Assembly (NCBI RefSeq): GCF_019704315.1
Contig: NZ_AP024597.1
Span: 1 to 64,000, forward strand
DNA from: Stygiolobus caldivivus
Lineage (GTDB): Archaea; Thermoproteota; Thermoprotei_A; Sulfolobales; Sulfolobaceae
Length of the DNA: 64,000 bases
Direction: 5' to 3'
How positions within the stretch are numbered: the first letter of the stretch is position 1; every line of letters begins with the position of its first letter. Shown here one piece after another: positions 29,929 through 52,230 of this stretch. The notes under the pieces were generated by a model. That model had not been told where the DNA came from and made no database searches. It saw only the letters and a program-made list of their open reading frames with translations. Both the position numbers and the translations under genes were made by a program.

Positions 29929-30882
29929 CTACGAATCTGGTAATATTTTTCTCATATTATTTTGATTACTTATTCCGCAAATAGTATTATAGCCTATTTT
30001 CTCATAATCTTTAAACAAACTACTGTTTTTAATACACTTCTGATACCTATCAACAAACTCTTTCTTAATTATACTACCTTCAAACACTGCAGTAAGCATT
30101 TCCTTCCTTCTATTATGGGCAATATCAAACCCCAAACTAACCTTATCCACCTTGCCCATAACTATTAAATTCTCTTCTAAAATATCGTCTATAATGTCGT
30201 CCGGTATTAAAATTGGAGATAACGCAAGATAGTAATCATCTGATAAGTCTTTATTCAATATATCATCATCGTCCTCAACTTCAAGCTTAACAACCCTGCC
30301 TTCTCCGCCTAAATTAGCTATCGTCTCACTTAATTCGAGATTACCCTCTACAAATACCACATAATTTATGTCCTTCTTAAAAGATAAGTACCTCGCGGTA
30401 TATAGGTAATGCTCTTTAACTACCTTCTTTTGCCTATCTAAACTTATTCCAATTCTATCTTGAAAATCAATTAATTCAAAAAGTTTATTCTTCTCGTAGA
30501 AAATATCATAAATCTCTTTTTCCCACCCTTCATGTTTTTCGTTCATACCATCTAAAATTTTTTTCAAACAAAATAGGATTTCTCTATTGACGAGGGCAAA
30601 CAGGTTCCCCATTCTTAATGGGTAAAGGTAATTTTCATCGCCCTCTTCTATTAAAGTACCGTAAATCTTAGCGTCTCCTAATTGTTTAAGAAGAGTTGTG
30701 AGCCAATCTCCATCACTGCTTCCACTGAATTTTAGGTATCCTAAAAGCCCGGCTATTGTTGACGGCCTAGGGATTATTAAAGACTGTGCAGAAACGTGTG
30801 AGCCGGTAACTAAAGGCTCAAATTCCCCTTGAGCCCTTAACATTAATGGTTCTAAAGGTTTTATTTTAATCTTCTTTGCCAT
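29929..30882 (-). CDS. cmr3: Type III-B CRISPR RAMP protein Cmr3
   Basis: 317 residues. The N-terminus KIKPLEPLMLRAQGEFEPL, SHVSAQSLIIPRPSTIAGLL matches Cmr3 (Cas5-group RAMP), which with Cmr2 caps the foot of the Cmr complex and holds the 5' tag of the crRNA. It is the last gene of the operon; its start overlaps the cmr2 stop by one base. Somewhat short of the usual length, with the end at 29929 by a clear stop. Assignment rests on motif and on operon position. Confidence 0.88.
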   Translation of the reverse strand: MAKKIKIKPLEPLMLRAQGEFEPLVTGSHVSAQSLIIPRPSTIAGLLGYLKFSGSSDGDWLTTLLKQLGDAKIYGTLIEEGDENYLYPLRMGNLFALVNREILFCLKKILDGMNEKHEGWEKEIYDIFYEKNKLFELIDFQDRIGISLDRQKKVVKEHYLYTARYLSFKKDINYVVFVEGNLELSETIANLGGEGRVVKLEVEDDDDILNKDLSDDYYLALSPILIPDDIIDDILEENLIVMGKVDKVSLGFDIAHNRRKEMLTAVFEGSIIKKEFVDRYQKCIKNSSLFKDYEKIGYNTICGISNQNNMRKILPDS

Positions 30883-33800
30883 TACTCACCACCATAAATT
30901 ATCCTTAAAGTATAAACCACGTTAGATATCAAATCCCCCTTAAGCCGATAACCTTCTATCCTTGTTGTAAAATACTCTGGTCTGAATAACTCCACAAGGT
31001 ATTTTGCATCTTTAAGGGAGGAATTCCTCTTTATCCAATACTCTAGTAACGGCTTCGCGATCGGTAAGGGTGAAGAAGTAATTAGGCCCCTATAATTCTC
31101 GTAGTCATAAAGTAAAGAAGTAGAAATCTCCCCCTCATCTACCTTTCTCTTCAACGCTAAGATTAACTCTATGACACTCGCAATATCCTTAAAGCTGTCC
31201 TTTGAAGTAACTATAGGCCTAATTAATGACAGAGGAATTACAGATTGTAATCCTTGATATTTAAAGATTACGATGTCCTTCTTAATCCTCCCTTTATCAG
31301 TATCTATACTTATCCTCTCCTTCCCCTCTTCTAGTAGGTAATACGAATCATTAATTATTGTAGGTAGGGGATCTGCGTAATGAGAAACAATTACGGAATA
31401 ACTCCTCCCTACTATTGGCAATGCTGGATAATATGTATTATTTAACCTTGTAAAACCGCCTTCCAAACACATATTACCTAATCTGTCTCCATATCCCGCA
31501 AAAGCCCTCCTACTCTCCTTAATAAAGTCTAAAACTTCGCTTATTGGAAGCATAGCAAGTAAGTCGTCTCCACCAGCATATATGACAAACCCCTTATGCT
31601 TATTAATCAGATTTATCTCCGCAATAAGCCCTCTGTTAAGTGCTGAGGAAATTGAGACGTGCCAAGCTGGAGTGACTATTATCCTTCCTTTATTAAATAT
31701 CTCGTTAAAGTAATTGATGGTCGATTTTACTTCTTTATTCACTTCGTTTTCATTTATTCCTTTCCTTCCCCCTCTCTTTATTCTCTTCATTAATTCATTT
31801 AAGTAAATTTTTTCTGCACAAGGGCAACATCTCTTCTCCTTCTCCCCTTCTATACATAATAATATCGAATGAATGTACGGCTCTACACTTTCGCTGGCCG
31901 AATCCTTTAAATATCCCTTTAGCAGTTCATCTACTTCCTCTTTTTTCGCACTTATGTTAGCATAATCACCGGAATCAATAATTCCAGCCAAATAAGGAGT
32001 CAACTTACCTTCCAATAAATCGCCTAAATAATCGCTGTCAGCCCTAACTAAAGCGTAATAAGGTGATGGAAAATTAATACCGTGTTTTCTAAATAGCGAG
32101 AAATAATATCCCCTTTTCTCCTCACTAAACCAATGTTCCTCCGGGTCTATTGTGAGATCTATACCCTTGTTATAATTCTCATTAAACCACTGCCACATGG
32201 AAAGTCTACTCTCAGTAGGCGTCTCACAAACCTTCTCGTTCTTTAAATCTTCACATAGCTCGTCTTTCTTCTCTATCATTTCCTCAAAAGTCCTAATTGA
32301 TGCGACATCGCTCGTTGAGGGAATCTCTATCTTAACAGCCTCAGTCAGTACTTCCTTCACAATCTCCTCAACGTCGTAAAGGCCCCCTAGTAGCAGAACC
32401 CTCATAAGTCTAGGCTCAGCACCTAAAGCCCTTTTCACTAAACACCATGGGCAGAGCCTTTCGCCGGGCGAAATCATCTTCTTTATGCACGTTAAATCAT
32501 TCTCGTCTTTAGCCATCCCGAGGCCAATTAACTTGTTAAATTCCTCTTCTTTGGGCATTATGACTACTGCCGGCAAAACCCCACAAGAAGTACAGAATTC
32601 ATACCCCCTCTTTGACTTCTCACCGAATTGGGGTAGCTTGCCGTCTTTTGTCAACTCAAACAGTTTTAAGTGTGACTCTGGTGTAACCTTGACCAGTTTA
32701 TCCTTCTTAAACTCACTAACCAGTTGACGATACTTAGTATCGTAGACCTTCCATGCGTCTGACTTTAGTGCCGGTTTTTTGCTATTTACTTTTTCAAATA
32801 TCTCATTTTTCTCTACACTTACTTGCCTTACGCGGATCTTCAGAGGAGGGATAAGTAACAGTTCTTCAGTCCTTTTTAATACGTTACAAACTAAATTCCA
32901 GAAACCATCTCCTCTCTTCTCTTGTGAATATATCCTTAGAGCCCGAATTAGCCTCTTCCACCCCTCATCATATCTTTCCTTCACCTTCGAAATGAAGTAA
33001 TTATCGTCTGGAAGGGGGGAATAATGATCTCCGTCACTCTTAAACCCAGGTAAGATAAGCGTAACCCTGCCGGGAATTATGGGATACGGAGGGATCTTCA
33101 ATTTCTCAAATAGGTCGTCACCATTAAATATATACTCGGTTACCAGTTGTTTAACCTCATCTATTACTTCCTTATCTATTCCTTCTTTCCTTAATTTTTC
33201 TAATAAATAGAACGCGTAAAACTGGTTAAACCTTAATGATGGGAAGAGAACTACATCCGGTCCGTATTCCTCTATGAAAGCCGTAATGACGTACCATAAA
33301 AGTGCCGAGACTAAATAGCTTGAAACCCATAAGTCTCTTACTTTCCTTCCCTTACTTATGAAGTCAGCAACGCCTACAGTATCCATACCTAGTAAATAAC
33401 CTTTTCTTGTATCTTTGTTATCACCATTAAATGTCAATATCCAATTCATCATTGCAGCAGTTGCGTATAAATGGTCGAAAATGCTGTGGGTAGGGTTTCT
33501 AGTATCTGAAGGACTACTTTCATATGCAGAATCTATCCATATTAATTCATAAATAAGGTAAAACAACTGGTACCTTAAAATATCAATATTATTGATGTTT
33601 AATATCTTTTTATATTTATTTATTAAATTATCTAATTCAGGCTTATTCTTAGGGAATAAGTTACCTACATGCTTTTGAATACTTGGCAAGAAGATATTTT
33701 TTAAGAGTATGTTGCGCTCCCTAAATATACTTTTTTCCCTATATGTAATGCTCCCTAAATATCTATCTATAGAACTAGCTAGTGAATCTGCATTTTCAAT

Positions 33801-34010
33801 ATTTTCTTCAAGACTCTCCATGTTAAATAATTGCTTAGCTATAAACTTGGCTACCTTTTCATGTGCTTTTCCATTTCTAATGATTTTTTTTATTTCACTT
33901 GTTAAATTGTGTGCTTCCCCCGATATTACCCATGCCTTGTTTGGAGGATCATGGATTAAGGCTAGTAATTTTTGATTTATGAAATTATTAACTGAAATTT
34001 CGTTACTCAT
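30882..34010 (-). CDS. cmr2: Type III-B CRISPR large subunit Cmr2 (Cas10)
   Basis: 1042 residues. An N-terminal HD motif LLALIHDPPNKAW (His20-Asp21), zinc-binding Cys pairs near residue 470 (CTSCG) and CPWC, and a palm polymerase-cyclase GGDD motif at 813-816 (YAGGDDLLAML). Cas10 senses target RNA bound by the complex, and its HD and GGDD sites give DNA cleavage and cyclic oligoadenylate synthesis respectively. Both are intact here, so the module should be signal-competent. It overlaps cmr6 by 4 bases and touches cmr3. Confidence 0.96.
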   Translation of the reverse strand: MSNEISVNNFINQKLLALIHDPPNKAWVISGEAHNLTSEIKKIIRNGKAHEKVAKFIAKQLFNMESLEENIENADSLASSIDRYLGSITYREKSIFRERNILLKNIFLPSIQKHVGNLFPKNKPELDNLINKYKKILNINNIDILRYQLFYLIYELIWIDSAYESSPSDTRNPTHSIFDHLYATAAMMNWILTFNGDNKDTRKGYLLGMDTVGVADFISKGRKVRDLWVSSYLVSALLWYVITAFIEEYGPDVVLFPSLRFNQFYAFYLLEKLRKEGIDKEVIDEVKQLVTEYIFNGDDLFEKLKIPPYPIIPGRVTLILPGFKSDGDHYSPLPDDNYFISKVKERYDEGWKRLIRALRIYSQEKRGDGFWNLVCNVLKRTEELLLIPPLKIRVRQVSVEKNEIFEKVNSKKPALKSDAWKVYDTKYRQLVSEFKKDKLVKVTPESHLKLFELTKDGKLPQFGEKSKRGYEFCTSCGVLPAVVIMPKEEEFNKLIGLGMAKDENDLTCIKKMISPGERLCPWCLVKRALGAEPRLMRVLLLGGLYDVEEIVKEVLTEAVKIEIPSTSDVASIRTFEEMIEKKDELCEDLKNEKVCETPTESRLSMWQWFNENYNKGIDLTIDPEEHWFSEEKRGYYFSLFRKHGINFPSPYYALVRADSDYLGDLLEGKLTPYLAGIIDSGDYANISAKKEEVDELLKGYLKDSASESVEPYIHSILLCIEGEKEKRCCPCAEKIYLNELMKRIKRGGRKGINENEVNKEVKSTINYFNEIFNKGRIIVTPAWHVSISSALNRGLIAEINLINKHKGFVIYAGGDDLLAMLPISEVLDFIKESRRAFAGYGDRLGNMCLEGGFTRLNNTYYPALPIVGRSYSVIVSHYADPLPTIINDSYYLLEEGKERISIDTDKGRIKKDIVIFKYQGLQSVIPLSLIRPIVTSKDSFKDIASVIELILALKRKVDEGEISTSLLYDYENYRGLITSSPLPIAKPLLEYWIKRNSSLKDAKYLVELFRPEYFTTRIEGYRLKGDLISNVVYTLRIIYGGE

Positions 34011-34858
34011 TTTATCGCCTCCACTTTACTTAATTCAAACAATGAATACCCAACCGAGGACCTAGCACCTAAACCTCTTATCACGACTAGCGGTAAAGTA
34101 TAGCAGATTGGTTTTCCTAAATCTTCTCTTTTGTAATAAATTAAGAAGCGAAAAGTCACTTTAGGGACAATTGTTAAATGTATAATAGGTGTTGGTTCTG
34201 CATCCATTTCGGACCTCTTCTTATTATAATGAGGTGTAATAACATCTGGTACAAACACGAAATTCTCTGCCTTCACCGGGTAAGCGTCTGTAAAGTTTGC
34301 ATTCCCCTCTCTTTCCTCATCACCGAAAATTTCCTCAGCCTCTTGCTCACTTAATTTATCTTCAATGTAACTCCTTACGATTCCTTTAATTTCAGAAGCC
34401 GGTATGTAAGGCAAATTCATGTAAGGATCGAAGGAAATTCCAGAGTCGAAAATCAACTTGCCCAATGACGTTGAAACCCCAATTAGAGCTTTTGTTCTAG
34501 TAGTTATTTCTACATCTACTACTGTGTATTTTAACGTCTTCAGTGTTTCTCTAAGGTTATCAAAGTACTCCTTTGCTTTTTTATCTTTTAATTTAAAGTT
34601 CTTTGAGACAAGTTCAGCTATCTCCTTCTTAAATAGGCTCTTCTTATCTTTAATGTCTTTACTTTTATTTTTGTCATCTAGGATTATAACGTTATATTTT
34701 AATAATGGATTATCAAGACTGTACGTCAGAGTATTTGAAAGAAATTCTTCAAAATTATTGTATATTATGCTAGTTAAACTTAACACCGAGAATAGATTAA
34801 TATCTCCTATGCGTGTCAACTTATTTAAGATATCGAATAGATTAGGATGAATTGTCAT
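34007..34858 (-). CDS. cmr6: Type III-B CRISPR RAMP protein Cmr6
   Basis: 283 residues. The RAMP core TTRTKALIGVSTSLGKLIFD, then the substrate-contact segment NLPYIPASEIKGIVRSYIED and the glycine-rich loop VVIRGLGARSSVGYSLFEL. Cmr6 caps the 3' end of the crRNA backbone with Cmr1. It overlaps cmr1 by 4 bases (ATGA) and cmr2 by 4 bases, so translation is coupled. Position in the order cmr7-4-5-1-6-2-3 is the same as in Sulfolobus operons. Confidence 0.9.
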   Translation of the reverse strand: MTIHPNLFDILNKLTRIGDINLFSVLSLTSIIYNNFEEFLSNTLTYSLDNPLLKYNVIILDDKNKSKDIKDKKSLFKKEIAELVSKNFKLKDKKAKEYFDNLRETLKTLKYTVVDVEITTRTKALIGVSTSLGKLIFDSGISFDPYMNLPYIPASEIKGIVRSYIEDKLSEQEAEEIFGDEEREGNANFTDAYPVKAENFVFVPDVITPHYNKKRSEMDAEPTPIIHLTIVPKVTFRFLIYYKREDLGKPICYTLPLVVIRGLGARSSVGYSLFELSKVEAIK

Positions 34859-36321
34859 GTTTTGCTCACACAGTCTGCTATAGTTTTAAGATCTTTACAT
34901 AATGTACTATAATCAATCTTAACAGGACTATTTGTAATGTATTCAATATACGACGGAACCAATAAGTATGTTAAAAGGAAAGCCCTTCTGTTATTCATTA
35001 ATATTTTAAATCTTAAAGCTGATGGTCTACGTTGCTTAGAGCCAAAAATATTATAATATTTAGTCATCCAAGAGGCTACGTCATAATTATTATATCCTAA
35101 CGTTTTTAAGTAATTATCAACATTTTGTGTAGATTTAAGAATTTTTTCCTCATTTTTTCTATTCCCACAAAATAGTATTAGAAACGCTAACGGATTCTGA
35201 ATAATTCGAATACATTTTCCTCCTTTTGTAACTGCTTCAACTATGGAATTAAGTATTTGAGCTATTTTATTCTTATTCGGATCAATCTCATTAGCAAATA
35301 TTGTACGTTCTAGAGTATTTGGAGCGAAATAGTAATATACTGCATTGGCATCGAGATTAGCTTCGATCAACCTATGCCTCTCATCGGAAAGATGAATATC
35401 ATACGTGGTTACACTACGAATTAAATCCATTAATTTTTCTTTAAGCTCTTTTCCATTTTCTACTTTCAAAATTTCCTTAACGTGGCTTTCCAGGTCACTA
35501 CATACCTCATCATAGCACTTAATGTCTACTATAGATAAACTACCAAACCCCCTACTAGTTTTCCTCCCAATCCCTCCTAACAGAATATAAATTAACAGAC
35601 TATATAACGTGAACTTAAGCTTAGCCTTAAAATTCTCTCGCTCGCGATTTTTATCTAGATAAATATTGAAAGCAAATTCTATTTCACACTTAATATTGAA
35701 ATATTCTAAGTAATCTGTAATTAAATCGCGTAGGATTTCCTCAAGTACATCCTTGCCAGAAATCTTAGTAGCATCTATTTTAGTACTGCTAAAACCTAAT
35801 AATTCAAACTTAAGTAAATTGTTTCTAAATACTAGATCCTTATTTTCGTCTATATTTATATTAGATTTAGAATAAGTAGGAATTTGAGTATTTCTAGCTT
35901 TAACAATTAGACTATCTTTATAGTCTAACGTTATTTTCCTCTTATAACCCTTTGAACGATCCCCCACCTTATCCAGTAAAAAATTCAGCACCTTATCCAG
36001 CTTTACTTCAGGAAGTTCAAACTGACTGCCTTCCTCAGTCATAACCTCTAACCTAACTGCAGACTTCCTATCCTCACTGCCAAAAACGTCTTCAAAAAGC
36101 CCATCTATAGAATCATAAGTATAAAGCTTGCCTCCCTTTGCGTAACTTGCAGTATTAAACAAGACCCTGTTCCACCACCTCCATAAACCCTTAATCTCGG
36201 TAGGCCTAACAAATTCCTCGTAGAACGTGTTTATACTATGCCTATTATATCCTCCCGTTAAGGGATAAAGGGCCTTCAGCCTAAGAGACATTAATAACTC
36301 TTCCGTTTTACCTCCCCTCAA
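34855..36321 (-). CDS. cmr1: Type III-B CRISPR RAMP protein Cmr1
   Basis: 488 residues. The hallmark RPTEIKGLWRWWNRVLF lies at 39-55 and a G-rich loop GGIGRKTSRGFGSLSI about residue 250. Cmr1 sits at the head of the complex near the 3' end of crRNA. The first possible start is TTG at 36321, inside the end of cmr5; the ATG at residue 11 (MSLRLKALYPLTGG) is the more natural start. A GGGGAGGT lies about 19 bases before that ATG. Confidence 0.92.
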   Translation of the reverse strand: MRGGKTEELLMSLRLKALYPLTGGYNRHSINTFYEEFVRPTEIKGLWRWWNRVLFNTASYAKGGKLYTYDSIDGLFEDVFGSEDRKSAVRLEVMTEEGSQFELPEVKLDKVLNFLLDKVGDRSKGYKRKITLDYKDSLIVKARNTQIPTYSKSNINIDENKDLVFRNNLLKFELLGFSSTKIDATKISGKDVLEEILRDLITDYLEYFNIKCEIEFAFNIYLDKNRERENFKAKLKFTLYSLLIYILLGGIGRKTSRGFGSLSIVDIKCYDEVCSDLESHVKEILKVENGKELKEKLMDLIRSVTTYDIHLSDERHRLIEANLDANAVYYYFAPNTLERTIFANEIDPNKNKIAQILNSIVEAVTKGGKCIRIIQNPLAFLILFCGNRKNEEKILKSTQNVDNYLKTLGYNNYDVASWMTKYYNIFGSKQRRPSALRFKILMNNRRAFLLTYLLVPSYIEYITNSPVKIDYSTLCKDLKTIADCVSKT

Positions 36322-36769
36322 TCATAGCCTCTGCTAATCTTTTTACCGCTAACAAATACCTTTTTATTCTAGCAGAAATTATAGGGGACAACTCATACAT
36401 CATGTTTATAACTTCTAACCTATTACATCTGAGCTTATCAATTAAGAATTTTCTATCCACTATATCTCTTTCGGATAAATAATATAGGATAATAAATAAG
36501 TAAGCCATATAGGATGCCTCATCACCCCTGCCTAGGTCAACGCTTGTGGGAGAAGATAACAACATAATTAACCTGTCCATTTTATCATTATCCTCAAGCC
36601 CAGCCTTAGAAACTATGTAAAAGAACGTGGGAATAAAACCGGAAGTGTAAATTTCCTCCACCATATCCCTCGCCCTGCTCCTGAACTTTCTCTTAGCCTC
36701 TTCGTTAGGCAACGAATTAATCGCTTTTTCGAAAGCCTTCAACGCTAACTCGTAATCCTCATAAGACAT
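36308..36769 (-). CDS. cmr5: Type III-B CRISPR small subunit Cmr5
   Basis: 153 residues, all helical (YELALKAFEKAINSLPNEEA, SDERDIVDRKFLIDKL). Cmr5 is the small helical subunit that stacks along the Cmr4 backbone. It overlaps cmr4 by 11 bases and cmr1 by 14 bases. Identification comes from size, helicity and operon position more than from a unique motif. Confidence 0.85.
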   Translation of the reverse strand: MSYEDYELALKAFEKAINSLPNEEAKRKFRSRARDMVEEIYTSGFIPTFFYIVSKAGLEDNDKMDRLIMLLSSPTSVDLGRGDEASYMAYLFIILYYLSERDIVDRKFLIDKLRCNRLEVINMMYELSPIISARIKRYLLAVKRLAEAMIEGR

Positions 36770-37616
36770 CCCTTGCCCACCTCAGTTCCGCTATCCCTTT
36801 CCCTATAGTCTCCTTACCTCCTAGAATGACGTATCTCAAATTCCTCAAAATACAGCTCATGAACACCGCACTCTCCTTACCCTCCTTACTTAAAAACACT
36901 GAAAAGAAAATACTCCTCATTGGTATGTACTCCTCAGACCACAAACCGCCAGTCTCTACAGTCTTAGTATTCCTATTTATCCTAATCCTCTTAACCCTAA
37001 TTAAAGACCTATTAATTACCTCCCTACCTTTAGAATCTTCTAACACCAATAATGGCACATTATCGTCAGTTATATAGGGGATGTCAACGTCAAAAGTCTC
37101 TAATTCAATGTAGAAGTCTTCATTTAAAATAGCGTATTTTAAATGACTTCCTAGCGCAATATTTACCCCTTCCTTAGAAAGTATATTATCGATTATATTT
37201 TGTAAACTAAAATAGGCATTAGATAATTGAGAGGATGATTCCAAATAAGACTTAACCTTCTTTAATAGTTCGTATGTAGTAACGTAGACCCATATATGAG
37301 GTCTAGCACTATTAATCTCTACAATTCTAGAAGGAATTGCGAAAAGTACTGCGTCTAAGAAAGTACCTAGCGATGCTCCTTCGGGATTTTCATCCTCACC
37401 CAGTACTTTATAAATTACGTCTCTCTTATTCGGAAACTCTTTAAAGAGAAAGGACTTTATCGCCCCTTTCAGGCTTGAAGCATAAATAGTTGGGTAACCT
37501 AACTCATCCCTCTGAAAGGGTAGGTCTATTTCCTCCTCTACTGATAAACCTGACCCAACATGTAAGTTGGTGACAGCGTGAATAAAAAATGGTTCAAAAA
37601 AATTGTAGTAAACCAT
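36759..37616 (-). CDS. cmr4: Type III-B CRISPR backbone RAMP and target RNase Cmr4
   Basis: 285 residues. The N-terminus NLHVGSGLSVEEEIDLPFQR, DELGYPTIYASSLKGAIKS is diagnostic for Cmr4 (Cas7 group). Asp31 corresponds to the acidic residue that cuts bound target RNA in known Cmr4 proteins. A G-rich loop ILGGKETIGKGIAELRW lies near the C-terminus. The start is ATG at 37616 with GAGG just upstream, 10 bases after the cmr7 stop. Confidence 0.95.
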   Translation of the reverse strand: MVYYNFFEPFFIHAVTNLHVGSGLSVEEEIDLPFQRDELGYPTIYASSLKGAIKSFLFKEFPNKRDVIYKVLGEDENPEGASLGTFLDAVLFAIPSRIVEINSARPHIWVYVTTYELLKKVKSYLESSSQLSNAYFSLQNIIDNILSKEGVNIALGSHLKYAILNEDFYIELETFDVDIPYITDDNVPLLVLEDSKGREVINRSLIRVKRIRINRNTKTVETGGLWSEEYIPMRSIFFSVFLSKEGKESAVFMSCILRNLRYVILGGKETIGKGIAELRWARDVL

Positions 37617-37626
37617 AAGGATTTCC

Positions 37627-38226
37627 TCAAGATCCTATGCTATAATAGTTAATCATATCGTTAAGCTTTATTTTCAAATCATTAATTGCATCGGCATCAG
37701 TAATGCCATAGAGATATTTTATTCCTTGGATTTTATGTTCGTCAATATTTAAGGAATTATATTTGGTTTTGGACACTTTTTTATTTTCCGCTATTATTAG
37801 TTTAATTGTTGCTTGTTCTTTCAAATCAACTTTAGATTTCCTTATAAAATACAGTTTATTCATTACTTCATCTTTAGAGAAAGTTATAGACATAGCTTTT
37901 TTGTCTATCTCCTCTTGTAATTTACCGGCTATGAGAATCCCTTTGACATAATCACAAGGATCTAATGTAGGAACTAATTCTAAACTATTTTCATCTATTG
38001 CGTATCCAGTAAGAACTAAAATGTTATGAATCTCTACATATTTCTTACCATTTTTATCGTTTTCCTTTATCCCAGATATGTGATCATTCCCTGTTAATTC
38101 AATTTTAATTTCTTTTCCTGTTGAACTATGATTCACAGAAAAATTTTTCTTATTATTTTCTTTATTTGATAGGTTGTAATTTACATTATTCACTAAAGGA
38201 ACAAACACGTAATAGATTTCTGTCAT
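37627..38226 (-). CDS. cmr7: Sulfolobales-specific Cmr subunit Cmr7
   Basis: 199 residues, first gene of the operon. Sequence motifs are weak (YYVFVPLVNNVNYNL at the start, VPTLDPCDYVKGILIAGKLQ in the middle), but length and position match Cmr7, the dimeric extra subunit coating Sulfolobus Cmr complexes, which precedes cmr4 there too. The promoter TATA (38251-38260) lies about 29 bases upstream of the ATG. Assignment is mainly by context. Confidence 0.8.
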   Translation of the reverse strand: MTEIYYVFVPLVNNVNYNLSNKENNKKNFSVNHSSTGKEIKIELTGNDHISGIKENDKNGKKYVEIHNILVLTGYAIDENSLELVPTLDPCDYVKGILIAGKLQEEIDKKAMSITFSKDEVMNKLYFIRKSKVDLKEQATIKLIIAENKKVSKTKYNSLNIDEHKIQGIKYLYGITDADAINDLKIKLNDMINYYSIGS

Positions 38227-45589: not shown

Positions 45590-46190
45590 AGCGGATCAGA
45601 ATATGGTTACGCGTGGAATTACGCAACAGTAAAGGGGAAAATACTAGCATTCACACGCATAGAAAATGACAAGAGTAGAGATAGTAAAAACTTGACAGAA
45701 CAAATACTAGAACTTGGATCGGAGATAGAACTAGTAGTACTAGATGCAGGCTTTTACTCAGTAGACGTAATTAACAACTTCTCAACTTCATTACCCGTGG
45801 AAAACATTGCAATTTTGATGGAGAATATGCTGTAAAATCGAGGGGTAAGAAGGCAACATTCAGGCTAATAGTACATTATGGTAGGGAAAAGAAATACTTT
45901 GCAAAGGGAACAGACTTAAACGTGAATAGGTGGTATAATAAGGTTAGGACACCAACAGAGATATCATACAAGATAATTTAAATTATTCCTCATCTTTACC
46001 TCATCAAGAAATTCCGATTATTCATCCTAACAATGCTAATATACACATTATACTTAATTCCTCAATGGGACAACGAGTAAAGAAGACTTCAGCTTACTAT
46101 TAATTATCTTGTTATTACAAGAAAGTATCACTTTACGAGAATATTTAGTTAAACTATTATTTTATCCAATTTTTAACTCCCTTGAATTAT
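45590..46190 (+). pseudogene. Decayed ISH3-type transposase, second copy
   Basis: Plus-strand fragments YAWNYATVKGKILAFTRIEN, IELVVLDAGFYSVDVINNF, then in another frame WYNKVRTPTEISYKII and LTMLIYTLYLI correspond to the middle and C-terminal parts of the relic at 11601-12610, at lower identity. Several stops and shifts. The N-terminus is missing. Confidence 0.65.
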
Positions 46191-46392
46191 TTTCGGGGTA
46201 ATGAAGTTGTGGGTCTAAGATAAGATTTAATAAATTTTATTGTGTGTCTTCATTTAGTTTTTATGAGGGTCACTAATGGTTTTTTGTATAATATCGAGGG
46301 CTTATTTTACACAATTTTTACTAACATTCATGTCATTACCGAAAATCTTAAAGAGTAACTTTTTTTAAAACAACTATTATTAGGGAACAAAA

Positions 46393-46665
46393 ATGGTTGA
46401 AATAATAGATCATACAAAGGTAATAGAGGAAAATCCCGATAAACCCCCTAAGCCACCGGGTGAAGTACAAATCTTGGAGAAAAGGCATGGAAGCCTAGAT
46501 GAGATACCAGTAGGATATGTAAAAACGCCATATGGTGAAGGGTATGAAATAGATATCGATGTAGGCAATGGAGTACACTATGTAGTTGTGTCACACTTAT
46601 CAAAAAACGGCTTAATTATAAACGTAGAAAATTTGCCAATGTACTTAATAAAGGGGACTACTTAG
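46393..46665 (+). CDS. Hypothetical protein, first gene of the small-peptide/ABC cluster
   Basis: 90 residues, acidic, with a Pro-rich segment (NPDKPPKPPGEV) and a beta-rich C-terminal half (YEIDIDVGNGVHYVVVSHLS). I do not recognise it. A TATA-like TTTTTTTAAAAC lies about 28 bases upstream of the ATG. The next small gene begins 3 bases after its stop, so it is in one operon with the small proteins and transporter to 48680. It could be a processing partner or another exported peptide. Confidence 0.65.
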   Translation: MVEIIDHTKVIEENPDKPPKPPGEVQILEKRHGSLDEIPVGYVKTPYGEGYEIDIDVGNGVHYVVVSHLSKNGLIINVENLPMYLIKGTT

Positions 46666-46667
46666 AA

Positions 46668-46823
46668 TTGGATATGAAAGCAATAGAGATGACTCATGGG
46701 GCTAAATCCATTATTAAAGTGTTAGGTGGCGGATATAGAATCCCTAGATCAAAAATGACTATAGAAGAACCAGCAGACAAAATGAAAAGGGAAGGGTCAA
46801 GCTTTGTAAAAATAGAAAGATAG
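46668..46823 (+). CDS. Small protein, about 49-51 residues, in the peptide/ABC cluster
   Basis: Open from TTG 46668 or, more likely, ATG 46674 (MKAIEMTHGAKSIIKVLGGG), ending VKIER at a TAG. It has a GGG turn and a basic C-terminus with no cysteines. Unknown function. It is followed 9 bases later by the cysteine-rich peptide gene. Too short for confident recognition; supported by tight spacing. Confidence 0.55.
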   Translation: MDMKAIEMTHGAKSIIKVLGGGYRIPRSKMTIEEPADKMKREGSSFVKIER

Positions 46824-46832
46824 GGTGATATT

Positions 46833-46976
46833 ATGCCTGAGACGAGTGAATTAGCCTTGGAGTTCTGCACAGAAGTTCAATGCAATGGACAACCCTGTAA
46901 GATAATTACCGACTCTATAACGTGCGGTGAGGAATGCGTTGCTGAAGCAGCAGACGCATGTGAAATATTCTGCTAG
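46833..46976 (+). CDS. Cysteine-rich 47-residue peptide
   Basis: ATG 46833 to TAG 46974-46976, with GGTGAT a few bases upstream. The peptide begins MPETSELALEF and then carries seven cysteines at 12, 17, 22, 31, 35, 43 and 47 (spacings 4, 4, 8, 3, 7, 3), the last being the C-terminal residue. It is acidic and has no signal peptide or membrane segment. Next to ABC exporter genes this looks like the precursor of a modified or disulfide-rich secreted peptide, or a metal-binding peptide. The pattern is seen; the function is inferred. Confidence 0.7.
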   Translation: MPETSELALEFCTEVQCNGQPCKIITDSITCGEECVAEAADACEIFC

Positions 46977-46986
46977 GGGATAAATC

Positions 46987-47226
46987 GTGTCCCTTTTCCC
47001 TATCTTATTTTACACAATTTTGCCTACAATATTTCTCATAGCTATAATTATCATTGTGTATTCGGGGAAAATTCAGCCTAATTTGAAAATAGGTATACCT
47101 ATATTAGCGGTCGGTGTAGCACTTATAGTAGTTGGGATACTTATTGGAAATCCACCTCTATATATTATAGGTTTTTTAATTTTCGTAATTTCCTTGATTT
47201 TTATACCAAGGAGGCACAGGTGGTAA
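46987..47226 (+). CDS. Small membrane protein, 79 residues, in the peptide/ABC cluster
   Basis: Starts GTG 46987. Two hydrophobic regions each long enough for membrane helices (FYTILPTIFLIAIIIIVYSG, then GIPILAVGVALIVVGILIGN), and a third (LYIIGFLIFVISLIFI) before a basic tail RRHRW. Unknown. It is likely an accessory of the transporter or an immunity-like membrane protein. Confidence 0.7.
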   Translation: MSLFPILFYTILPTIFLIAIIIIVYSGKIQPNLKIGIPILAVGVALIVVGILIGNPPLYIIGFLIFVISLIFIPRRHRW

Positions 47227-47229
47227 TAG

Positions 47230-48030
47230 GTGTTGGGCCTTTATGACGTCAGTTCGGGCTACGGTAAAAAGTTAGTCCTACAAGACATTTCGTTTGAAAT
47301 TAAGGAAAGTGGAGTTTATATTGTTTTAGGTAGGAACGGCGCGGGCAAGACAACTTTACTAAGGACTATTGCGGGAATCCTTAAGCCCTTAAAAGGAAAA
47401 ATTGTAAAGGAAGGGTCGATAGCTTACCTCTCTCATTCCTTAGCATTACCTAACGAGATGACGGTAAGGGAGGCGTTAGAGTTCTTTTCTGGCATTTTAG
47501 GTGGGGATGTTAATAACGTGGTCGAGAAATTTGACCTAAAGGGCTTACTGGACAAGAGGATTACTGATTTATCTCAAGGACAGAAGAAGAGAGTTTCAGT
47601 TGCAAAGACCTTCTTAAAGGATCACGATATTTACCTCTTTGATGAACCTACCGAGAATCTAGACCCTATTACCGCGTCAAGGATAAGGGAGGAGATAGTT
47701 TCACTATCTAAGTCAAAAATCGTAATTTACACTTCTCACAACCTCTACGAAGCTAGGGACATCGGGAAGTACGTCTTAGTGATAGATGGAGGGAGGCTTA
47801 AGTTATTTAAGCCGATAAGCGAGATTAGGCTCAAGGAGTATAAGATAGGGATAAGGGCTTCGCAAGACCTCTCTAAAATACTGGACGGGGAGTACCAAGG
47901 CGAGTACTTTGTTATCACAGTTGACGACCCTTCAAAAGTTAACCAAATAATACAAGAGTTATTAAGTAGGAATATACAGATTTATGAGGTTAAAGAAATG
48001 AAGAACCCTCTGGAGGATCTGTTAAAATGA
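47230..48030 (+). CDS. ABC transporter ATP-binding protein
   Basis: 266 residues, start GTG 47230, 3 bases after the previous stop. Walker A LGRNGAGKTTLL, Q-loop region, signature LSQGQKKRVSVAK, Walker B IYLFDEPTENLDP and H-loop TSHNLYEA. It energises the permease encoded next, with which it overlaps by 4 bases. The short, NatA/CcmA-like form is typical of ABC-2-type exporters. Confidence 0.95.
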   Translation: MLGLYDVSSGYGKKLVLQDISFEIKESGVYIVLGRNGAGKTTLLRTIAGILKPLKGKIVKEGSIAYLSHSLALPNEMTVREALEFFSGILGGDVNNVVEKFDLKGLLDKRITDLSQGQKKRVSVAKTFLKDHDIYLFDEPTENLDPITASRIREEIVSLSKSKIVIYTSHNLYEARDIGKYVLVIDGGRLKLFKPISEIRLKEYKIGIRASQDLSKILDGEYQGEYFVITVDDPSKVNQIIQELLSRNIQIYEVKEMKNPLEDLLK

Positions 48031-48680
48031 TTTACACGACTTTCATAAGAAGGATGGTTAACAGAAGTAGGGCAATAACCGTATACTTTTTAGTATTATC
48101 AATAACTGCCTTGTTTCTTGATTTATATGACATATTCAAAATAAGAGTAATGAGTCCTATAATACTCTCGAGTTTTTTAGTATCCCCTTCGTTATTCGGT
48201 ATAATGTTCTCTTCTTTAGCGGTAGGGCTATTCACAGACGATAGACAGAACGGGCTTCTTGAGTTTTTAGTAGCGGAGGGATTTAAACCAGAAAAGATTT
48301 TCTATATCTATGCAGTGTCTTACTTATTAGTATCAGTGCCAATAGATGCTTTAATATCTTACATTTTAGGAGTTTTCGTACACAACATGGCGTATTTCGT
48401 CATATTACTGACTAACAGTATAGGAATATCGTGGATTATTGTACCAGTTTCAATGTATTTTGCCTACCTACAGAGAGTTTCTGGCAGTTCTAGGTCACCC
48501 TTAGGAACGTATATCGGTGTAGGGTTATTATTTATACTCATATACTCGTCGACAACAGTGACTTCAGAAACAGAGATAGAGGAGATACTATTATACTCTG
48601 GAATAGTGTTCCTTATAGTAGCGGTACTATTAACCATCTTAATAGGAAAGAATTTTAGTTCAGAAAAATTGATATCTTAA
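48027..48680 (+). CDS. ABC-2-type permease
   Basis: 217 residues with about six hydrophobic segments (AITVYFLVLSITALFLDLY, PIILSSFLVSPSLFGIM, FYIYAVSYLLVSVPIDAL, FVILLTNSIGISWIIVPVS, YIGVGLLFILIYSS, ILLYSGIVFLIVAVLLTILI). It pairs with the upstream ATPase (4-base overlap), probably exporting a small molecule or peptide. Last gene of the cluster. Confidence 0.85.
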   Translation: MIYTTFIRRMVNRSRAITVYFLVLSITALFLDLYDIFKIRVMSPIILSSFLVSPSLFGIMFSSLAVGLFTDDRQNGLLEFLVAEGFKPEKIFYIYAVSYLLVSVPIDALISYILGVFVHNMAYFVILLTNSIGISWIIVPVSMYFAYLQRVSGSSRSPLGTYIGVGLLFILIYSSTTVTSETEIEEILLYSGIVFLIVAVLLTILIGKNFSSEKLIS

Positions 48681-48859
48681 GCTAAGTTATTTGATCCAGT
48701 AATTTCTAAATGCAAGTAATTACTAAAATATTATCCAAACCAATGATAATGAAGAAACTAAATTCCGGTAGCTTTTATCGGATAGCACTTTACGGTTTTC
48801 TCTTCCTTCTGAACAGTTTTTTGATACCACCTGCTACACGGTAGATACTTTTTATGAGC

Positions 48860-49853
48860 TTGGACGACCTCCTTGTTCCGAGGTCCAGACCCGTGGAGTA
48901 CTTGAACTACCGGACCATAAGGAGGGAGAGGGCCTTCAGGGCCACTAAGCCCGTGTCCCTACCCGGGTTAGGGAGGGATCCCTCCCTACCCCAACGATTT
49001 AGGCCCCCTTATGAGGGCTCCAATGTCCCAACGGTCCCCCCACGTCGTGGTGACGTCCTCGGGTGTGTCGTGCAGGTCGGTCGAGGAGGAGTACCCCCTC
49101 CCGTAACCTTTATAATCGTCTACTACCAATAACTTGATGGGAGTGCCTAGGTACTCCACTAGGTACTCCCCTTGGGGGAACTCGCCAACGGGCACGGACC
49201 TGCCACCCTCGACGACCCGCGCGTTAGACTTGAGCTCCCCCACAGTGTTTCCACGGAGAGTCCTAGAGTTCACGTACCACGAGTCGAAGACTATAGCCTT
49301 CACGTTGAAGCCTGCGAGGGAGGGTAACAACTCTAGGGAGACGTCAACCTTTATCTTGGACTCCACCTCCTCACCCCTCTCTCTTCCTCCACCTTTCTAG
49401 GTACGTAAGGGGTGGTGTTGACTACAACTCGTTGTTGGTCAAGTCCTTGACCCCTATTACAAGGGGCTGGATCGAGGCCTGGACTCCTTGTGTGCCCTGC
49501 AGTAGAAGGCTCGTGTCCCGTTCCTTGAGACCGGCATAGCTCTAGCGTAGGGCTTGTGGCCGTGGGTGTCGTCGACTATGAGGAGGACAGGGTGGTCCCC
49601 TACCAAGTGCTTCACTACCTCGGTCAAGCTTGTACTAGCTGTCTAACCCCTTCAGCACGGTCTCGTAGTCCATCCCCGTCTCTTGGGCTATCTCTATGGC
49701 GTTTCCTCCCGTGATTGCTCCCAACACTAGCCTCCTTGCGACGTCCTTTCTCACCCCAGTGAAAGACTGGGCTACCTCGTTGACTGCCTCCTCAAGTGCT
49801 TTGTAGTACTGCTCCCTTGCCTTCTCCTTGATCATACCAAAATTAATCGCCAT
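48860..49853 (-). pseudogene. Decayed ISC1217-like DDE transposase
   Basis: Minus strand, in order: an N-terminal helical part from 49853 (FGMIKEKAREQYYKALEEAV), a middle part VVDDTHGHKPYARAMPVSRN, then from 49366 VFDSWYVNSRTLRGNTVGEL, LLVVDDYKGYGRGYSSSTDL and TPEDVTTTWGDRWDIGALIR. Several frameshifts and a TAG separate them. DDE aspartates are visible in VVDDTH and VFDSWY. ISC1217 naming is from memory; the IS701/ISC1217 type is the nearest match. A fragment of a second copy is at 28955-29160. Confidence 0.75.
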
Positions 49854-49957
49854 AATTGTTAAAATGTTTTCACGGTTCGCTAACCTTGTCAGGATTTTCC
49901 GATAAAAGCTATATAATATTTTCGAAATTACCTTTGTAAAGCGGTCTTGGAGGGTCT

Positions 49958-50061
49958 TATACCCGGTCAGTAAATAAAGGGTAACAGTGCTGTTAATGTA
50001 AGGCCAGAAACTTTGTTAAACGAGAAAATTGACGTTGCCCTTTGGTACCTGACAAAGTATA
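49958..50061. repeat. Repeat family A, copy 3 (MITE-like)
   Basis: About 104 bases. Left end TATACCCGGTCAGTAAATAA then AGGGTAAC; right end on the other strand TATACTTTGTCAGGTACC then AAAGGGCAAC. It ends right at the vapC stop. No open frame. Confidence 0.65.
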
Positions 50062-50062
50062 C

Positions 50063-50491
50063 TTAACCTAATTTACTTAACTCATTGACTTCTATCCCCG
50101 TATACATTTTTACCAACTCCTTTTTACCCAGTATGTCCTTATCAAAAGTCAAAAAGTACGGGGCCCCGATCAGTGTAGCAGATGATATCTGTAATATGTC
50201 TAACGTCTTTAACTGCAGCCTTAAAGAAAGTTCCTCACTTTTTCTCAACAGCCTGTTCCAGTCAACTTCAGTTACCCTCACGTCGGAAAACTTTAACGAG
50301 TAAAGGGCTGCAGCTTTAGCCTTAATTTCATCCTTAAGTTTCCTAGAGTAAAAAGAGTTAAGCTCTAAAACCGTTACCTCGCCGGTGACCAAATTCCTGA
50401 TATCCCTTATCCTTATCGCTTTTTCATAATTAGGGTCTTCCTCCACTAGGGATAAAATAACGTTAGTATCTACATAATGTGGGTCACTCAT
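50063..50491 (-). CDS. vapC: VapC-like PIN-domain toxin
   Basis: 142 residues. PIN catalytic acids: Asp8 in HYVDTNVILSLVE, Glu43 in VTVLELNSFYS, then Asp in LKTLDILQIS and FLTFDKDILG. PIN-domain VapC toxins are Mg-dependent ribonucleases, held inactive by VapB. It overlaps the upstream antitoxin by 8 bases. Confidence 0.9.
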   Translation of the reverse strand: MSDPHYVDTNVILSLVEEDPNYEKAIRIRDIRNLVTGEVTVLELNSFYSRKLKDEIKAKAAALYSLKFSDVRVTEVDWNRLLRKSEELSLRLQLKTLDILQISSATLIGAPYFLTFDKDILGKKELVKMYTGIEVNELSKLG

Positions 50492-50735
50492 ACCTTTCTT
50501 CCCTCAAGTCGGAAGTGTCCAACTTTTTATATGGAAAACCGTTCTTAAACCATTCGTCTACCAACTTCATGACCTCTTCCTGTTCACGTATTTTTTTCTC
50601 TATTTCAACTCTTCCATATTCTATTAATAGGTTCACGGCCTCGTTTTTCGACTTGGCGATCCCGAGCTCGATCATCTTTTCAATCAGTTTGGCAATTCCT
50701 TCATTCACCTTTATAGTAATGACGACGTTTACCAT
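50484..50735 (-). CDS. vapB: VapB-like antitoxin
   Basis: About 83 residues from ATG 50733-50735 (MVNVVITIKVNEGIAKLIEK); an upstream GTG would add a short unlikely leader. Ribbon-helix-helix N-terminus (VVITIKVNEGIAKLIEKMIE, KSKNEAVNLLIEYG) for DNA binding and dimerisation, then a helical, acidic C-terminus (REQEEVMKLVDEWFKNG) that would wrap the toxin. It overlaps vapC by 8 bases. Confidence 0.85.
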   Translation of the reverse strand: MVNVVITIKVNEGIAKLIEKMIELGIAKSKNEAVNLLIEYGRVEIEKKIREQEEVMKLVDEWFKNGFPYKKLDTSDLREERYE

Positions 50736-50778
50736 AATATTATATGGGTATACCATTATAATAAGCTTTTTTCCATCA

Positions 50779-50990
50779 GGGACTGATGGTAGTCCCTATT
50801 ACAGTTTAGAGGAAATTTCGGGTATATTGGTATGTGTTGTCCAGCTGATTTCCTCACCACCTCGTAGAGGTGAGGGTTCCTCTATGAAGCGGTTCATTGT
50901 TCCCGCCATCGGTTCGGGTTGACATCCCTCATCTGGCGTGCAGTCGGGAGGCTCAGAGGCCCCACCTGAACGGTAGACCCAAAATCGTTT
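50779..50990 (-). mobile_element. Relic of an IS200/IS605 right end (TnpB tail, possible omega-RNA region)
   Basis: On the minus strand 50815-50960 encodes SEPPDCTPDEGCQPEP .. TMNRFIEEPSP, the kind of Cys/Pro-rich tail found at the C-terminus of archaeal TnpB. Close to it is a stem CACCTC-GTA-GAGGTG, and at 50779-50796 a perfect hairpin GGGACT-GATGGT-AGTCCC, typical of IS200/IS605 right ends. TnpB guide (omega) RNA is made from this part of such elements. The rest of TnpB is gone. Confidence 0.5.
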
Positions 50991-51498
50991 TACAAAAATA
51001 ATTTCTATTTGGTAATGTTTTGGTTGTGAAGTTTAAATTAAATTTCTTGTAATTCTAAGAGTTTAATAAACTATAAAAAAGTGGGGGAATTTAGAGGGTC
51101 GCTCACATGAGAGCGTCCAATGTGTAATAAATATGAATAACTAAATAAAGTAAAAAGTTATAAAACACGTTCACTTAAAATTAAATCCACTTAATTACGA
51201 AAGGGTCTTTCACAGCTTTTTTGAGAATTCACTTTATTTCCTCATTTTGTATTGTAGATTGACAATTGGAGGAACCACAGAGTTCGTATCACGGACTTAA
51301 TGGAGATAACATATAACCAGTTATTCCTTCATACAATTATTCTGACCCTATGAGAATATTATAATTCGCAAAAAGAAACCTGACCCACCCGACGCTCGAC
51401 TACGACTTAAAGTACTTTAAGTCCGGATTTAAGAATCGTGAGCTCTCTTTCGTCCCAAGGGAAAATTTTTACTACCGTCCTACGTATAATAGACAATT
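50991..51498. other. Intergenic region
   Basis: About 510 bases, AT-rich. It contains GGGTCTTTCACAGC, resembling in inverted orientation the GTGAAAGACC motifs near 8485 and 15240. No gene is supported. Confidence 0.35.
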
Positions 51499-51723
51499 AT
51501 GTCTACAGTTATTAGTGTGAGAATAAAAAAGGAGATAAAAGAGGAATTAGAAAAGCACGGAATCGATATTGACCAAGAGGTTAGGAAATTCTTAGAGGAA
51601 TTGTACTTAAAAGTTAAGGCTAAGGAATACGTTAACTCGTGGATTGAGTTGCTTAAAGGTGTAAAACCCAGCGAAGAAGGGTTCTCTGAGAGGTCGGTGA
51701 GGGAGGACCGTGAAAGCCATTGA
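51499..51723 (+). CDS. vapB: VapB-like antitoxin (pair 2)
   Basis: 74 residues. MSTVISVRIKKEIKEELEKH followed by IDIDQEVRKFLEELYLKVKA is the short ribbon-helix-helix type antitoxin of archaeal VapB. A C-terminal SFERSV-like toxin-binding tail follows. It overlaps the broken vapC by 14 bases. Confidence 0.8.
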   Translation: MSTVISVRIKKEIKEELEKHGIDIDQEVRKFLEELYLKVKAKEYVNSWIELLKGVKPSEEGFSERSVREDRESH

Positions 51724-52098
51724 TTCGTCGACACTAGTTAAGTTTTTCTCTAAAGAGAAAGGGTGGGAAAAAGTAGCTGAAATAATCCCTGAAGGTGTAG
51801 TAACGTTAGACCTAAGCTATTAAAGAAATTGCTAACGCACTATGAAAAAAGTGATAAGGGGAGAAATGGGTGAGAGCGTAGCGACAAGAATTTTATCTGA
51901 TTTGCTCAAGAAGGGAGCAATAATTACAGTAAATCAAGATGAATATCTAGTTGAAGCATTTAAAATCGCTACTAAATTACTGTTTATGACGCCTTATTTA
52001 TAGCCTTAGCTAAACCCATGAAAACTGGGTTAATAACTCCTGACGAGAAACAGTATGACGCGTCTCTGAAAGAAGGGACAAAATCGCGGTTTATTTAA
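51710..52098 (+). pseudogene. VapC-like PIN toxin with frameshifts (pair 2)
   Basis: From GTG 51710 (GGGAGG 4 bases before) the product reads KAIDSSTLVKFFSKEKGWEK with the first PIN Asp, and then shifts and a stop break it near 51820. Later frames still carry GESVATRILSDLLKKGAIIT, ATKL and VYDALFIALAKP, TPDEKQYDASLKEG, to a TAA at 52096-52098. At least two frameshifts and a nonsense codon. The partner antitoxin is intact. Confidence 0.85.
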
Positions 52099-52230
52099 AG
52101 AGTTAACAAAGAATTTAAACACTCTTAGTCATTAGTGTTTGCACTTCTTGTTTAGATAACAGTTCCTTGGTTTGAGCCCAATAGGATTTAACGTGTAACG
52201 AAATATTTCGCTCTTTTCTTGTATAGATTG

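Follow-up and report, generated by a model that had tools for sequence, protein, structure and literature searches.

A mobile cassette for an acidic seven-cysteine peptide in Stygiolobus caldivivus as a candidate archaeocin-like system of the Sulfolobaceae

We analyzed a 64,000-nucleotide (nt) stretch of the archaeon Stygiolobus caldivivus (NZ_AP024597.1, positions 1 to 64,000; the window hereafter), in which a compact cassette (46393–48680) encodes a 47-residue cysteine-rich peptide, a larger partner protein and a predicted ATP-binding cassette (ABC) transporter. The partner, a protein of about 145 amino acids (aa), and the peptide form a small unnamed family, found only in the Sulfolobaceae in our searches. 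We consider that there is about an even chance that they belong to a small archaeocin-like secreted peptide system, mobile and minimal. This reading is based on the tight pairing of the two genes, independent finds by profile, the kept cysteine pattern, adjacency to halocin-C8-like genes, a proline at a fixed position, a patchy, mobile and decaying distribution, and purifying selection.

The cassette consists of five genes, all on the forward strand (+). A sequence-only reading of the window had described six genes in one direction; the six open reading frames (ORFs) are indeed tightly packed (gaps of 2, 9, 10 and 3 nt, then a 4-nt overlap of the ATPase and permease genes), and the first two proved to be one gene. 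This partner gene (46393–46823) is split in the window into a 90-aa ORF (46393–46665), its 5' part, and a 51-aa ORF with a TTG start (46668–46823), its 3' part. A single protein of 145–150 aa is intact at the same place in genomes G078, G125, G090 and G066, and the profile of these relatives matches both halves. Aligned DNA of three genomes locates the frameshift at 46624–46636 (+), where one A is missing from an A-run (window GTAGAAAATTTG, relatives GTAGAAAAATTTG), reflecting either a real mutation or a homopolymer sequencing error; with the partner gene frameshifted, peptide production may be lost in the window strain. No hydrophobic segment was seen in the 90-aa fragment by hydropathy. Downstream lie the genes for the acidic seven-cysteine peptide (46833–46976, identified by Sulfolobaceae homologues with kept cysteine spacing and by the ratio of non-synonymous to synonymous substitutions, dN/dS), a 79-aa membrane protein with two to three hydrophobic helices and a basic C-terminus RRHRW (46987–47226; hydropathy, homologues in G078, G125 and G090 and a weak one in G042), a 266-aa ABC transporter ATPase (47230–48030; PF00005, E 1e-25, ABC motifs), and a predicted 217-aa ABC permease without a Pfam family (48027–48680; hydropathy, overlap with the ATPase gene, homologues in G078, G125, G090 and G042). 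Across all five genes, dN/dS among the window, G078 and G125 was 0.11–0.46 (Nei-Gojobori counts), so that all five show purifying selection and are, or were until recently, translated.

The cysteines of the peptide are exactly where the sequence-only reading had placed them, at residues 12, 17, 22, 31, 35, 43 and 47, leaving gaps of 4, 4, 8, 3, 7 and 3 residues. Seven cysteines in 47 residues are improbable at the cysteine frequency of the window (0.7%; P ~5e-8), and the peptide has the highest cysteine count among the 235 short ORFs of the window. Among homologues, down to 20% identity, the spacing C-x13-C-x3-C-x6-9-C is kept, with constant loops of 13 and 3 residues; cysteines beyond this core differ between peptides, and full-length members carry 5 to 7. 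The window peptide has a net charge of -9, an acidity shared by the whole family (net -5 to -10). Its own dN/dS among the window, G078 and G125 was 0.11–0.32, from small counts. The leader-like N-terminus proposed earlier is doubtful: the conserved region begins at residue 2 (proline), the cysteines are spread from residue 12 onwards, and the window form has no long leader. An AlphaFold model of the peptide alone (pLDDT 55) gave no interpretable fold.

Homologues were sought with the window sequences first and then with profiles, in 31 Sulfolobaceae genomes plus a sample of the order and the phylum. The partner family is present in 10 of the 31 genomes: G000 (the window's own), G066, G078, G084, G090 (two copies), G125, G136, G151, G175 and G183. 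No convincing member of the partner or peptide family was found elsewhere in the order or phylum sample; weak profile matches outside the Sulfolobaceae were short, often contained stops or lay within larger frames, and were put down to chance as a group. The profile recovered G084 at E 1.6e-8, and G136 and G151 at E ~1e-40, before any of them had entered the alignment. A recognisable cysteine peptide follows the partner gene in eight of the ten genomes (exceptions G136 and G183), and in every such locus the two genes overlap or are at most 9 nt apart. Some copies are degraded: the peptide frame of G151 has no usual start codon and has lost one core cysteine next to a kept partner gene, the peptide of the second G090 locus is shortened, and G183 has only partner fragments at the site that matches the G090 locus. 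Kept cysteine spacing and co-occurrence with the transporter, which the sequence-only reading had proposed to look for, were both found, the latter in four loci.

Searches of Pfam, NCBIfam, PHROGs and PADLOC returned nothing significant for the small proteins, and neither did PDB sequence searches, in which matches to scorpion toxins (E 0.4) were set aside as chance. A plasmid search with peptide and partner gave no match. Scans of genome and viral collections with the alignments of both were also without matches, and carry little weight, as known holders such as G078 were missed as well. Literature searches yielded no description of peptide or partner; a 2019 survey of archaeal antimicrobial peptides might list the family.

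Nine peptides were compared without gaps, anchored on the core cysteine that is C17 in the window. The residue at position -15 is proline in eight of the nine and leucine in the ninth (G084), with proline making up 3.9% of residues. This proline is preceded by the start methionine in the window, G078, G125 and G090, and by aspartate in G066, G175, the second G090 copy and G151. The occurrence of Met-Pro or Asp-Pro ahead of the core suggests a common mature N-terminus, since removal of the start methionine before proline and cleavage of Asp-Pro would yield an identical end. The hosts are thermoacidophiles. Asp-Pro bonds serve as sites of acid cleavage, which leaves an N-terminal proline (PMC12848717). 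Halocin-like precursors of the Sulfolobaceae carry Asp-Pro 4–5 residues ahead of the first core cysteine and, in most cases, another one inside the core, so that the motif alone is no proof of processing.

The assignment of the ABC ATPase was confirmed by its Walker A, LSQGQ signature, Walker B and H-loop. Genes for the membrane protein, ATPase and permease adjoin the pair at four loci, those of the window, G078, G125 and G090; a decayed permease remains in G131 and G136. The peptide-partner pair is the core of the system and the pump an optional addition, as G066 and G084 have the pair but no transporter beside it, and a related ABC locus of G042 lacks the pair. That locus encodes a homologous permease (35–36%), an ATPase and, weakly, the membrane protein, among other neighbours and with no peptide or partner homologue found there. 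It adjoins (L038 6684–10065) a short cysteine-containing frame (CLCCGTVVGAVGCAGV), a 143-aa protein and a second ABC-2 permease; the frame lacks a canonical start 5' of the cysteines, is without relatives in the 31 genomes, and was not used. Like the ABC pumps of bacterial bacteriocins and lantibiotics (e.g., the TIGR03740 and TIGR03608 ATPases), the cassette has its ATPase and permease in separate genes, and its ATPase matches these families among many other ABC families, all below cut-offs. It differs from them in that a C39 peptidase domain is absent, no modifying enzyme was seen and the permease has no family match. The ATPase consists of a single 266-aa ABC domain and none of the peptides has a double-glycine leader, which sets the cassette apart from peptidase-containing ABC exporters. 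By eye, the neighbourhoods read, with neighbours scanned in part, held no recognisable modifying enzyme; one encoded far from the cassette is possible. Export of the peptide, protection of the producer or the two together are possible functions of the pump and the small membrane protein.

A 3.2-kb block that includes transposase remnants is 91% identical to G078 and 88% identical to G125 (blastn), both of another genus. The unique genes of an 18-kb stretch of the window are mostly 65–74% identical to the same two genomes (the stretch holds repeated elements, and a few very short matches are higher), and this difference indicates recent horizontal transfer of the cassette. The block starts with transposase-gene remnants (45596–46000, +; called by eye), common to G078 and G125. 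In these two genomes the cassette is directly followed by a VapBC-like block, in the window at 51102–52208 (+; blastn synteny, family assigned by eye). Between the two in the window lies a later insertion of about 2.3 kb (48771–51100), apparently with a degenerate transposable element. About 26 bases 5' of the first start codon, a TATA-box-like A/T-rich stretch (ctttttttaaaac; 46358–46372, +), read from the sequence and presumably functioning as such, is similar in G078 and weakly kept in G125. Elsewhere in the window, a minus-strand gene run (29929–38226) resembles a type III CRISPR (Cmr) effector operon by eye.

Patchy spread, horizontal transfer and repeated, differing inactivations are typical of bacteriocin genes. 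G078 is the only intact one of the four fuller loci, and the broken genes of the others are the partner in the window (frameshift), the permease in G125 (frameshift) and the ATPase in G090 (in-frame stop). That three of the four loci are each broken in a different gene, together with the transposase remnants flanking the cassette, also fits a decaying relic without current function in the window strain, an explanation that we think unlikely, if by no means far-fetched, and that is compatible with any original function. The fully intact locus of G078 speaks against it, as do the intact peptide, membrane protein, ATPase and permease of the window, whose dN/dS is clearly below 1; the window frameshift itself is explicable by a homopolymer sequencing error.

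The halocin-C8-like domain TIGR04449 was found in 6 of the 31 Sulfolobaceae genomes, five of them above cut-off. G175 and the second G090 locus each have a halocin-C8-like gene with a membrane-protein neighbour, and the partner-peptide pair follows immediately downstream. The genome of the window has such a gene as well, 2.49 Mb from the cassette (2541094–2541348; L090 7690–8355), encoding a 221-aa precursor (TIGR04449, 26.2 bits, over cut-off) with a 199-aa membrane protein encoded next downstream; comparable pairs occur in G090, G131, G146 and G175. Near halocin-C8-like genes (L095 9899–10330; L091 8572–9003) we also noted a 143-aa DTGS-motif protein without a Pfam match, by eye a retropepsin-like aspartic protease and possibly an acid-active processing protease. 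Some 2 kb from a halocin-C8-like gene of G146 there are a radical SAM/SPASM protein (Pfam, over cut-off) and an MFS-like transporter (L094 10222–12366), and an M48-family peptidase (PF01435) and a 105-aa glycine-rich hydrophobic protein lie beside the second G090 copy (L081 7619–9424).

Halocin C8 is made as a single precursor of immunity region and peptide, and ProC8 is exported via Tat (PMC11509114). The family described here is likewise archaeal and patchy, and likewise combines a cysteine-rich peptide with a dedicated partner region without cysteines. It differs in its shorter peptide (47–60 aa, compared with a core of ~70–85 aa with more cysteines) and in that, at the loci read, partner and peptide each have a gene of their own, side by side. 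The peptide had no match to TIGR04449 (halocin_C8_dom) at E <= 1, hhalign gave no support for the partner being homologous to the N-terminal region of such precursors (probability 0.1%), and neither window peptide nor partner shows a twin-arginine motif with a hydrophobic N-terminus. Sulfolobicin (SulA/SulB) consists of two proteins with signal peptides (PMC8628083). These antagonistic proteins belong to the same order as the host of the cassette; in comparison, the cassette peptide has no signal peptide and is far smaller. On these comparisons, the cassette is a member of neither the halocin C8 nor the sulfolobicin family.

From the sequences, we infer export, disulfide formation, processing, antagonism and a role for each partner as follows. 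A short, acidic, cysteine-rich peptide would be co-produced with a dedicated soluble partner of ~145 aa. In the four fuller loci, the ABC-2-type pump and the 79-aa accessory membrane protein would carry it across the membrane, and may also confer self-protection. Outside, in hot acid, its cysteines would form disulfides, and the mature peptide would act on related Sulfolobaceae. It would start at the conserved proline 15 residues ahead of the key cysteine, an end reached by removal of the start methionine in the window type and by acid-labile Asp-Pro cleavage or a protease in the longer type. The earlier proposal of a secreted or modified cysteine-rich peptide with an ABC exporter is in part borne out by the conserved cysteine pattern, the partner gene, the mobility and the halocin-C8-like adjacency; the transporter is optional, the leader is unsupported for the window form and two of the supposed genes are one broken gene.

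Several observations weigh against an archaeocin-like system. Some peptides have an odd number of cysteines (5 or 7), which would leave the pairing into disulfides incomplete or call for bonds between molecules. The window peptide has no signal peptide or hydrophobic segment by hydropathy, and its charge sets it apart from cationic antimicrobial peptides. No transporter adjoins the pair in two loci (G066 and G084). G175 and the second G090 locus share 94% identity over 1.8 kb, so the halocin linkage counts as one event, not two. The window and G084 have a broken partner gene beside an intact peptide, which is awkward for an immunity protein and unexpected for a sole immunity factor; the role of the partner therefore leans towards production, unless these frameshifts are sequencing errors. 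A more specific version of the archaeocin-like reading is distinctly unlikely in our estimate: a miniature, hitherto undescribed family of archaeal bacteriocins, in which hot acid would cleave Asp-Pro ahead of the cysteine-rich core, one branch without a leader would expose the same proline by removal of the start methionine, and the separate partner would replace the fused immunity region of halocin C8.

Alternatively, peptide and 145-aa protein might bind each other inside the cell as a toxin-antitoxin or stress-type module, with the ABC genes as a separate neighbour. The tight pairing without a transporter in G066 and G084, the VapBC-like neighbours and the horizontal mobility would suit such a module. 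We regard it as improbable: known toxin-antitoxin or defence families gave no match, a cysteine-rich peptide would be an unusual antitoxin, G151 has kept the 145-aa gene next to a peptide without a normal start codon and one core cysteine, and the pair is linked to a halocin-like gene. The abundance of cysteines and acidic residues is also consistent with a metal- or cofactor-binding peptide whose pump transports metals or thiols, the alternative named by the sequence-only reading itself. This we consider quite improbable, since no CxC or CxxC motif, as in metallothionein-like proteins, occurs in the window peptide or any relative, the window peptide has no histidine, the cysteine count of full-length peptides ranges from 5 to 7, one core cysteine is lost in G151, no metal-handling gene was recognised among the neighbours read and several loci lack the pump. 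A secreted signalling or self-recognition peptide that does not kill would share the anatomy of a small bacteriocin and the family-restricted distribution, and is very improbable given that no receptor or regulator gene was recognised in the loci and that the linkage is to a halocin-C8-like gene.

As of 2021, sulfolobicin, a two-protein toxin, was the only one characterised in Sulfolobales (PMC8628083). If the archaeocin-like reading is true, a mobile peptide-partner module distributed across the Sulfolobaceae and linked to halocin-C8-like genes would be a second, much smaller class of toxin in this order. The system is amenable to direct study: the peptide is short enough for synthesis, G078 holds an intact cassette, and the predicted N-terminal proline of the mature peptide is distinguishable by mass.
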